A DNA stretch of 64,000 nucleotides from Phycisphaerales bacterium. GTDB lineage: Bacteria > Planctomycetota > Phycisphaerae > Phycisphaerales > UBA1924. Position 1 is the stretch's first letter. Each line of letters starts with the position of its first letter. Below, piece by piece: positions 1 through 10,319 of this stretch. A program made the translations under genes and the position numbers. The DNA is taken from positions 62,001 to 126,000 of the forward strand of contig JASBRY010000009.1 of NCBI GenBank assembly GCA_030149165.1, written 5' to 3'. Below the pieces are notes generated by a model. That model was not told the DNA's origin. It did no database searches and was given only the letters and a program-made list of their open reading frames with translations.

Positions 1-942
1 ATGGGTCACAGCGACAACAACGCGATCGGGATGTCCGCGATGGAGAACGCGATGCTCGAGTTGGGTGGTACGCGTGCGGTGTTGACGCGTGCAGATGATC
101 CCAATGCTCCTGGCGCGAATCCTGAAGCCGGGATTATTGTGATTGGTCCATCGAGTGACCCTGCGAATCAGGTGGTGGTGAATCTGAATCTGATTGGTGC
201 GGAGGGCGCGTATTTCACCCCTGAGCAGCAGTTCTTTGTGCCACAGGTGCACGATGGGTCCAACAGCGCACAGCAGAGTGGGAATCCGACGGGCGAGGGT
301 CAGGAGTTCATGCCTGATGTGCTTGATGCCTGGGGCAATCCGTTGCTCGTGTGGTCGCAGGATCCTGGAGCGCCGAGTTCGCTGCTGCTGAGCAACGATG
401 CTGATGAGGTCTACACGCAGATTGCGCGCGTGAGCAGCGATGGTGACGGCAATCCGGGCGACACAACCGGTCCGGCATGGTTTTATCTTGAGAGCAACTC
501 GGCGTTCCTTGAAGCGCCGGCGTTTGGTTCTGCTGGCATCGATATGAGTGCAGATCCGACAACGGGCAGCGCCAGCGTCATCGGCGCGGCGGTTGCTGAT
601 CTTGAGCGGATCCGTACGCTCGCTTCGCTGCTTGCATCATCGAACTCGTATCAGCTCGATCCGAGCGTCAACGGGCTTTCGAACGCAGAGTTTGAAGAGG
701 TGTTCCCATCACGAGCACGAGGTCGGTTCTTGGTCCAGTCCGCTGGTTCGGATGGTATCTATCTGAACAGCACTGATCCTGGGTGGGCGGAGAACGCGCA
801 CACGGATGGCGGGGAATACCACATCGACTTTGGCAACTCGTTCTTCGATCAGGGGAACATCCGCTACACAGATCAGAACGGTGCGTTCACGAATATTGAT
901 TTGTTCGAGCCGTTTGATGATCTGATCTTCGGGACGAAGTGA
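1..942 (+). CDS. Probable type II secretion pseudopilin (GspG-like), C-terminal part; gene probably begins upstream of the window
   Basis: ORF open from base 1; 'DAWGNPLLVWSQDP' resembles the pseudopilin 'DPWGNPY' motif; no N-terminal prepilin helix in the window. Confidence 0.5.
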   Translation: MGHSDNNAIGMSAMENAMLELGGTRAVLTRADDPNAPGANPEAGIIVIGPSSDPANQVVVNLNLIGAEGAYFTPEQQFFVPQVHDGSNSAQQSGNPTGEGQEFMPDVLDAWGNPLLVWSQDPGAPSSLLLSNDADEVYTQIARVSSDGDGNPGDTTGPAWFYLESNSAFLEAPAFGSAGIDMSADPTTGSASVIGAAVADLERIRTLASLLASSNSYQLDPSVNGLSNAEFEEVFPSRARGRFLVQSAGSDGIYLNSTDPGWAENAHTDGGEYHIDFGNSFFDQGNIRYTDQNGAFTNIDLFEPFDDLIFGTK

Positions 943-5328: not shown

Positions 5329-5358
5329 TTGACAAATACCATACAAAGACCGTTTAAT
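5329..5358 (+). promoter_or_regulatory. Putative sigma70-type promoter for the HYExAFE gene
   Basis: TTGACA at 5329-5334, 18-bp spacer, TTTAAT at 5353-5358; start codon at 5387. Confidence 0.55.
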
Positions 5359-5386
5359 TTAGCCTTGTTTGGGGTATGCTGGAGTG

Positions 5387-6040
5387 ATGGCACAGCGACG
5401 GCACCATTATGAGCGTGCGTTTGAGGGGTACCTTCGAAAGCAGCGTCTGGCGTATATGGCGGTGAATGAGGCGCGGAGAGCGCTGCTGCCGAGGGACGCG
5501 AAGCTGGTGCTTGAGCGTGGGAAAGACGGTTCAGAGGATCCAAGAGCGATCAAGAACTTCGATTTCGTGGTCTACGGCGATCAGCAGCGCGGGATCGAGG
5601 ACGGGTTTGATGGGGATTCAGCGGACAACTTGCTGGTCGAGATCAAAGGGCGAAGGCTCCCAAGGCTGCGGTTCAAGGACGGCGCTCCGGCGAAGGCTCG
5701 GCTCGAATCGTGGGTCACGATGGATGATGTGGATGCGATGAAAGCGTGGGAGGGGTTGTTCGGGAGTGGATACACGGCGGTGTTTGTGTTTGTGTACTGG
5801 TGTGATGATGTGCCTCCAGATGGATTGTTTACGGAGGTGTTCTCGCACGGCGATCGGTGGTACACGCTCAGGGCGGTGACTTTGCGGGATTACGAGGCGC
5901 ATATGAAGGTGCGTTCTCCCAAATGGCGGACGGTGAATCTGTTGAGCGAGGACTTTGATCGGCTCTGGAGGGGGTTCTGTGGGGGTGGATCGCGAAGGGT
6001 GGTGGGGTTGGATGCGTCCATGGAGTTGAGCGGCGCTTGA
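5387..6040 (+). CDS. HYExAFE family protein; possible PD-(D/E)XK nuclease-like fold (inference)
   Basis: N-terminal 'RHHYERAFEGYLRKQRLAY' matches the family name motif; later 'KNFDFVVYG' and 'LLVEIKGRR'. Confidence 0.85.
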   Translation: MAQRRHHYERAFEGYLRKQRLAYMAVNEARRALLPRDAKLVLERGKDGSEDPRAIKNFDFVVYGDQQRGIEDGFDGDSADNLLVEIKGRRLPRLRFKDGAPAKARLESWVTMDDVDAMKAWEGLFGSGYTAVFVFVYWCDDVPPDGLFTEVFSHGDRWYTLRAVTLRDYEAHMKVRSPKWRTVNLLSEDFDRLWRGFCGGGSRRVVGLDASMELSGA

Positions 6041-6082: not shown

Positions 6083-6334
6083 ATGATGGAAGTTCTTCAC
6101 CAACGGGTATCGTCGCTCAGTGCGAAAGCAATGGCGTGGTTCATGATGGCGTCGGTCGCGATGCTGGGCTCGGATGTTTGGGCGCAGGCGGAGGATGCGG
6201 AGCCGTTGCGTCCGCCTCGCGTGGGTGATGCGCCAAGCTCTCCCAAGTTCTTGGTCATGGGTGTGGTGATCGTGCTTCTGGCGCTTGTTGTGGTCGCGGT
6301 GACGCTGAAAACCAAGCGTGGGCACCAAGACTGA
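6083..6334 (+). CDS. Small hypothetical membrane protein
   Basis: 83 aa with two hydrophobic segments, the second FLVMGVVIVLLALVVVAVTL. Confidence 0.5.
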   Translation: MMEVLHQRVSSLSAKAMAWFMMASVAMLGSDVWAQAEDAEPLRPPRVGDAPSSPKFLVMGVVIVLLALVVVAVTLKTKRGHQD

Positions 6335-8645: not shown

Positions 8646-10319
8646 ATGAGCAGCAACACTACGAGTAGCAAATCATCGGACACGCACCACAAGCCTTTGG
8701 GTTTCAAAGAGACGGCGACGAGTCTGATCATCGCGTTCATGATGGCGTTTATCTTCCGCGGCTTCGTGGTCGAGGGGTTTCAGATCCCTACGGGATCGAT
8801 GGCGCCGACGCTACTTGGGAAGAATGTTCGATTCTCGAGTCCGCACAATGGGTATAACTGGACGACTGGTCCTTGGACGACGACCTCGCCGAGAAGTCGT
8901 GTGCCGGCGCGTGTGCAGGGACCGATCGAGGTGACCGATCCGATGACGGGGCTCGATCAAGCGGAGACGAATCGGAAGTTGTCGAGCGGCGATCGTGTGT
9001 TCGTGCTCAAGTATCTCCCGATGCTGCATGAGCCGGAGCGGTGGGATGTGGTGGTGTTCAAGAATCCAGGTACGCACGAGAACTACATCAAACGATTGGT
9101 CGGGCTTCCGGGCGAGCAGATCGCGTTTGTGGACGGCGATGTGTTTACACGCAGTTACATCGAGGGACAGACGAGTACTGAGGGGTGGGACTCTTGGGCC
9201 GAGGAGAGCTGGAGTGTGGCGCGCAAGAGCGAGCGCATCCAGCGGGTGATGCTGCAGGATGTTTCACATTCAAGGTACGCGCCTGTGGAGGTGACTCCAG
9301 AGTTCCGCTCTCCTTGGGATGGGGTCGGGAGCGGATGGGACGGTGTGCGGACCGATTCGAGCTATACATTCTCTGGATCGGGCGAAGCAAAACTTGTTTG
9401 GAATGGTGTTCGTCCGCTGACGGATCGCAACTCGTACAACCAGATCTTCAAGGGATTTGATTTGTACGCGAAACCTGAGATGCCGATGCAGTCGTCGTCG
9501 AACTACAGACCGTTTTATGTTTCTGATCTTGCGCTGTCGGCGGATATCCAGATGGATGACTCTGCGGTATCCGCGACTCCGATGATCTCAGCGCGAGGTC
9601 ATCAGTTCCGCGGGATTGTGGATCCGGGTGCTGGCGCGGTGCGTGTTGAAATGCGCGAGGATGTTGAGGGCGCTGAGTGGCGTGTGCTCGATTCCGGGAG
9701 CATCAGCACTCGATCGGGTGGGGTGATCGGCGTGGAGTTTTGGCACATCGATCAGGCGCTGTGGTTGTTCGTGGACGGCAAGCTCGTGTGCGGCGGAGCG
9801 GAGAAGGGCGCGTACGACATGACCCCGATCCAGAGGGCATCGGCGGCGACTGGGATGAGTCCTGAGGAGCTGGCGCGTGATCGCGAATCGGGGGATGGAA
9901 TCCGTGCGCCCGGCGTGTTGTCGCGTCCTGGGATTTATCGTCCGGCGCAGGTCGAGTGGTCGTTTGATGGTGGAGGGTTCACGCTGCACAATGTGCGCGT
10001 GCGTCGCGATATTAGCTACAAGAATATGTCGCGCGAGACGGCTCGGATCGGGATCCGAGGGGGGCATCCGAACAACTATCCCACGCTGCACGATGATGAG
10101 TTCTTTATGTGCGGCGACAACTCGGCGCGTTCACAGGATTCTCGTCTTTGGGAGGACGACTCGATTGTGCCTTGGGTGAGCGAGTTGATTGATGATCGCG
10201 CCGGGATGGTCAACGAGGACCTGATCGTGGGTAAGGCGTTTGTGGTCTATTGGCCGAGCATGCTCAAAGAGGGCAAGGCGCCGGCGCCGGACATCGGGCG
10301 CGTGCGCTGGATCTGGTAA
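8646..10319 (+). CDS. lepB: Signal peptidase I with large internal insertion
   Basis: 'IPTGSMAPTLLG' (catalytic Ser), 'YIKRLVGLPGEQI' (catalytic Lys), 'FFMCGDNSARSQDSRLW' (box E). Confidence 0.85.
   Translation: MSSNTTSSKSSDTHHKPLGFKETATSLIIAFMMAFIFRGFVVEGFQIPTGSMAPTLLGKNVRFSSPHNGYNWTTGPWTTTSPRSRVPARVQGPIEVTDPMTGLDQAETNRKLSSGDRVFVLKYLPMLHEPERWDVVVFKNPGTHENYIKRLVGLPGEQIAFVDGDVFTRSYIEGQTSTEGWDSWAEESWSVARKSERIQRVMLQDVSHSRYAPVEVTPEFRSPWDGVGSGWDGVRTDSSYTFSGSGEAKLVWNGVRPLTDRNSYNQIFKGFDLYAKPEMPMQSSSNYRPFYVSDLALSADIQMDDSAVSATPMISARGHQFRGIVDPGAGAVRVEMREDVEGAEWRVLDSGSISTRSGGVIGVEFWHIDQALWLFVDGKLVCGGAEKGAYDMTPIQRASAATGMSPEELARDRESGDGIRAPGVLSRPGIYRPAQVEWSFDGGGFTLHNVRVRRDISYKNMSRETARIGIRGGHPNNYPTLHDDEFFMCGDNSARSQDSRLWEDDSIVPWVSELIDDRAGMVNEDLIVGKAFVVYWPSMLKEGKAPAPDIGRVRWIW

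Follow-up and report, generated by a model that had tools for sequence, protein, structure and literature searches.

HYExAFE, a planctomycete protein family with a predicted PD-(D/E)XK nuclease fold of the minimal Hjc type

Results

The HYExAFE gene and its family

The subject of this study is a single gene, HYExAFE, located on a stretch of 64,000 nucleotides of a Phycisphaerales bacterium (contig JASBRY010000009.1, positions 62,001 to 126,000), which is referred to as the window. The gene is an intact open reading frame (ORF) with an ATG start (Table 1), and its product scores 191.7 bits against the NCBIfam family NF038001 (HYExAFE), above the curated cut-off of 60 bits. It is present in a single copy in the 2.84-Mb genome to which the window belongs. 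A search of Pfam with the window protein gave no credible match; a hit to PufX (E 0.19, under the PufX cut-off) was dismissed as noise. Searches of Protein Data Bank (PDB) sequences with either the window protein alone or the family profile matched no solved structure. A search of the available literature library on the family name found no paper, and a second one on planctomycete signature proteins returned nothing relevant.

An earlier note on this DNA had proposed that the protein carries the motif order of PD-(D/E)XK nucleases. Its ORF and coordinates were exact and all of the peptides it quoted are present, namely HYERAFEGYLRKQRLAY at residues 7-23, KNFDFVVYG at 56-64, LLVEIKGRRLPR at 82-93 and TAVFVFVYW at 130-138.

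Table 1. Positions of the HYExAFE gene, its putative active-site codons and related features (window coordinates, except for the type III Res-like proteins, which are given by locus)
Feature	Position	Strand	Observation
HYExAFE protein, 217 aa	5387..6040	+	NF038001 E 8e-57; AlphaFold pLDDT 83.4, pTM 0.81; best Foldseek match Hjc
Codon of E9, putative motif I carboxylate in helix 1	5411..5413	+	E in 90, D in 23 of 113; model helix 7-18
Codon of D59, putative motif II Asp beside strand 2	5561..5563	+	D in 113/114; pairs with Hjc D33
Codons of E85-I86-K87, putative motif III (D/E)xK on strand 3 (81-91)	5639..5647	+	Residue 85 D/E in 114/114, K87 in 113/114; pair with Hjc E46 and K48
Codon of D114, putative motif IV Asp at the start of helix 2 (112-125)	5726..5728	+	D in 112/114; pairs with Hjc D61
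TTGACA-N18-TTTAAT, promoter proposed in the earlier note	5329..5358	+	Absent from promoter-scan output; imperfect in L032
TATGCT, TAnnnT element 12 nt before the ATG	5375..5380	+	Candidate -10 box of a leaderless transcript
Type III Res-like proteins, about 940 aa	L084 782-3628; L085 3244-6054; L086 3730-6525; L087 3448-6258		C-terminal core shared with HYExAFE

Predicted fold and structural matches

The structure of the window protein was predicted with AlphaFold from an alignment with 108 relatives and gave a predicted local distance difference test score (pLDDT) of 83.4 and a predicted template modelling score (pTM) of 0.81. The model of a second member, L094, which is about 26% identical to it, reached a pLDDT of 88.7 and a pTM of 0.86; the alignments behind the two models overlap, so that they are not fully independent. 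Both models have a matching order of secondary-structure elements, which in the window protein runs helix 7-18, strand 23-25, strand 60-62, strand 81-91, helix 112-125 and strand 129-139.

When the models were compared with the PDB using Foldseek, archaeal Hjc ranked first for the window protein (E 6e-4, TMt 0.64-0.68). Hjc also ranked first for L094, for which the top 17 matches were without exception junction resolvases of archaea, with a best E of 4.7e-5 and TMt values reaching 0.75; next came the restriction enzyme SwaI, RecU-type structures and another restriction enzyme, HincII. Several of the named matches among predicted viral structures are likewise Holliday-junction resolvases or other nucleases. 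The element order of the two models and their PDB fold matches place HYExAFE, by prediction, within the PD-(D/E)XK core. The prediction, made with good confidence, is thus of a PD-(D/E)XK fold resembling that of archaeal Hjc and Hje, and the fold suggested in the earlier note is supported by two models that are restriction-endonuclease-like.

Conservation of the putative active site

Conservation was counted in an alignment of 114 distinct HYExAFE relatives, using the residue numbers of the window protein. All but one of the 114 sequences have the motif II Asp and the motif III (D/E)xK of the superfamily, as D59, (D/E)85 and K87. Residue 85 is only D (73) or E (41), and conservation of this degree exceeds chance. 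The accessory motifs I and IV are found as well, as E or D at residue 9 in all 113 relatives that have this position and as D114, a residue that adds to those named in the earlier note. Near-invariant in the same way are K56, G88, R89, W109, F135, S177 and W180, and the sequences carry a family-specific RSxxWxT motif. The earlier note had named as a test the invariance of the Glu of AFE, the Asp of FDF and the Glu and Lys of EIK; the latter three positions are essentially invariant, with D or E at residue 85, while the AFE Glu (E13) is Ser in 10 members. For this reason the motif I Glu is better assigned, as judged from the alignment, to E9 of HYE.

The one exception lacking D59 and K87 is L088, a degenerate second copy in genome G138. 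This HYExAFE-like copy (397-924, minus strand, contig 69) has no recognisable N-terminal motif, a stretch that looks like a tRNA lies a few hundred bases from it, and it is possibly a degenerate paralogue on an island.

Sequence-profile links

The HYExAFE profile weakly matches (E about 1e-3) the C-terminus of ORFs of about 940 amino acids that carry a ResIII helicase domain together with weak DUF1064 and TnsA-like matches. In a profile-profile comparison with the C-terminal domain of these type III Res-like proteins the probability was 81 (E 1.3e-5). The corresponding comparison (hhalign) with four Hjc/Hje sequences, taken from a PDB search and including a P. furiosus Hjc sequence identical to 1gef, was weaker than the Res link (probability 13, E 2e-3); the alignment pairs D59, E85, K87 and D114 with Hjc residues that have been given as Hjc motifs II, III and IV (PMC1913061). 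Comparison with YraN was not significant (hhalign probability 2.9).

Distribution and inheritance

A profile search across the phylum detected HYExAFE in 115 of 392 genomes, or in 107 when only the 282 best are counted. Carriers usually have one copy, and none of 14 well-known control genomes has the gene. Within the window's class it is nearly universal apart from one family, f4: 45 of 47 sampled genomes outside f4 carry it as compared to 1 of 17 inside. A scan of species genomes yielded 52 loci, nearly all of them titled Planctomycetota or Phycisphaerae-type; a single locus stands under a Proteobacteria title and may be misassigned. Within the collections searched, the lineage restriction suggested in the earlier note holds at the level of the phylum.

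In a tree of 63 members, six of ten multi-member host families are monophyletic and the rest mix only with few other planctomycete families, so inheritance looks mostly vertical. No copy was found in the phages, plasmids and viral contigs scanned, the viral scans detecting close relatives only, and the idea of a mobile or phage gene was rejected on these grounds.

Family f4 belongs to the window's order. Its 16 sampled genomes without HYExAFE contrast with neighbouring families, which nearly always have the gene; the absence is a family-level loss, and f4 retains RuvC.

Gene neighbourhood

HYExAFE is preceded in the window by genes for an ABC-type ATPase, an MCE-like protein and an alpha/beta hydrolase and followed by small ORFs, ricT (NCBIfam) and a gene for a signal-peptidase-like protein. 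Up to 39 related loci show parts of the same gene order. The commonest arrangement seen elsewhere places hisS immediately before HYExAFE in the same orientation: 23 of 110 distinct loci have it within 300 nt and 28 within 1 kb, some of them with a gap of 3-15 nt; this linkage is absent from the window and from most relatives of its order. The labels hisS, ABC, MCE and signal peptidase are our reading of the sequences, made without database matches. No restriction, defence, recombination or methyltransferase gene was recognised near HYExAFE at the loci examined, and the neighbourhood is a housekeeping setting.

Directly downstream of HYExAFE lies an ORF of 83 amino acids (6083-6334, plus strand) with two hydrophobic stretches and no match in Pfam or NCBIfam. 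Stop-to-stop frames of up to 615 amino acids surround some homologues; they were not established as real extensions and fusions were discarded. A compact homologue of 165 amino acids is present in L123.

Promoter and start

A near-consensus sigma-70 promoter had been proposed upstream of the gene. Its TTGACA (5329-5334) and TTTAAT (5353-5358) are separated by an 18-nt spacer, the latter hexamer lacks the key -10 A, a promoter scan of the region reported no site, and the nearest relative, L032, has ATGACA in place of TTGACA, so that the promoter as proposed is not well supported. A TAnnnT element starts exactly at -12 in 37 of 113 HYExAFE upstream regions. Across the window, such an element stands at that distance before the candidate start of 15 of 44 long ORFs versus 2 of 43 internal controls. 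Leaderless transcripts have this layout, and a comparative study suggested them for planctomycetes (PMC5397173); the pattern suggests that such transcripts are common in this lineage. TAnnnT is also seen about 12 nt before other starts of the window, e.g. at 8646 (plus), 11288 (minus) and 50478 (plus).

Discussion

We propose that HYExAFE, encoded on the chromosome and passed on mostly by vertical descent, is a PD-(D/E)XK nuclease with a minimal Hjc-type fold, a model to which we assign a probability of roughly 0.8. It is probably a housekeeping DNA-cutting enzyme. By analogy with the superfamily, the carboxylates of the conserved site (E9, D59, (D/E)85-x-K87 and D114) would bind Mg2+ and K87 would position the attacking water for the cleavage of phosphodiester bonds in DNA. 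More tentatively, the protein, probably as a dimer, may act on branched or damaged DNA during recombination or repair and work alongside RuvC and YraN. This role is suggested because Hjc, Hje and RecU are the proteins closest to it in structure and because the surroundings are of the housekeeping, non-defence kind; branched DNA as the substrate is a guess. That HYExAFE might be a second, phylum-wide junction-cleaving enzyme of Planctomycetota, i.e. a bacterial, chromosomally inherited Hjc-type resolvase beside RuvC, appears doubtful. RuvC is found in 366 of 392 genomes of the phylum, including the window's genome and nearly all HYExAFE carriers. Since RuvC and YraN occur in the same genomes, HYExAFE does not replace a missing resolvase, and the replacement hypothesis was rejected.

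Several observations weigh against the proposed role. With RuvC and YraN both present, the genomes show no evident need for a further resolvase, and at the loci examined no recombination gene recurs as a neighbour of HYExAFE. The profile score between Hjc and HYExAFE is weak and PDB sequence searches matched nothing. Hjc itself comes near to the bare minimal fold, so that any compact PD-(D/E)XK protein may match it best. We give a little less than even odds to an alternative, namely that HYExAFE is an active PD-(D/E)XK deoxyribonuclease of a different type (nicking, lesion-specific or end-processing) that does not particularly favour Holliday junctions. Fold and active site would fit it equally, the wide presence of RuvC is in its favour and so is the profile link to the Res-type nuclease domain, which is firmer than the one to Hjc, whereas in the structure search junction resolvases outrank other PD-(D/E)XK enzymes. 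A protein that has kept the fold without nuclease activity, serving in DNA binding or as a scaffold, seems improbable: fold membership does not guarantee activity and the conserved aromatic residues W109, W121 and W180 may serve other roles, but 113 of 114 sequences show strong constraint at every catalytic motif position and the sole copy without catalytic residues is the degenerate one of G138.

The similarity to the C-terminal domain of type III Res-like proteins, along with weak, sub-threshold PADLOC matches (HEC-02B, best 0.001), would be compatible with a restriction or anti-phage nuclease. We regard this as very improbable in view of a gene that is usually single-copy, tracks host families and has housekeeping neighbours, with no methyltransferase or defence gene recognised nearby and none in the phages or plasmids scanned. 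Least probable of all is an action on RNA, e.g. tRNA, at which the closely spaced hisS upstream in some of the loci might hint; neither the window nor most relatives of its order show this linkage, and the nearest structures are DNA enzymes.

A PD-(D/E)XK nuclease of the kind proposed would bring a predicted fold and active site to a family for which NCBI gives nothing but a name and that is nearly universal in the window's class outside f4. If HYExAFE cuts branched DNA, it would join RuvC and YraN as a further small chromosomal nuclease of planctomycetes, and recombination and repair in these bacteria, which have been little studied, would in part become directly testable.

Comparison with known nucleases

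Taken together, the comparisons support HYExAFE as a new family inside the known PD-(D/E)XK superfamily. YraN (UPF0102, PF02021) is also a small chromosomal PD-(D/E)XK-like protein with a D and EVKxR core; it has a gene of its own in 372 of the 392 phylum genomes, the window's among them, the profile comparison is not significant and HYExAFE gives no PF02021 match, which led us to reject the identity of the two. Putative nucleases of COG4636 have been reported in Rhodopirellula; their catalytic Lys has migrated and their genes proliferate and move horizontally (PMC551604). HYExAFE in contrast has its Lys in the canonical position (K87), is single-copy in the window's genome and in most positive genomes and tracks its hosts, as the monophyletic host families indicate, and is thus not of the COG4636 type.

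RecU (PDB 1zp7, 1rzn) shares the PD-(D/E)XK resolvase fold (E 4e-3 to 7e-3 in the Foldseek search with L094), with a structural score below that of Hjc and no sequence match to HYExAFE. With the C-terminal domain of the type III Res-like proteins HYExAFE has a PDF...(E)VKG core in common; that domain is joined to a ResIII helicase domain within a polypeptide of about 940 amino acids, whereas HYExAFE is small and stands alone.

By sequence HYExAFE falls outside the Hjc family: a Pfam scan of 109 members lists neither Hjc nor PF02021 among the families found, PDB searches gave no match, the hhalign probability is low and identity to archaeal Hjc/Hje is 10-14%. Hjc R10, invariant in the four Hjc/Hje sequences, is R in only 48 of 114 HYExAFE sequences, the RSxxWxT motif is an addition, and HYExAFE is bacterial and, in the searches made, planctomycete-restricted. 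Its closest likeness is nevertheless to the archaeal Hjc/Hje structures (PDB 1gef, 2wcw, 2wiw, 1ob8, 4tkd), with which the predicted models share the overall fold across nearly the whole domain, and the profile alignment places the residues of motifs I to IV in identical order (PMC1913061).
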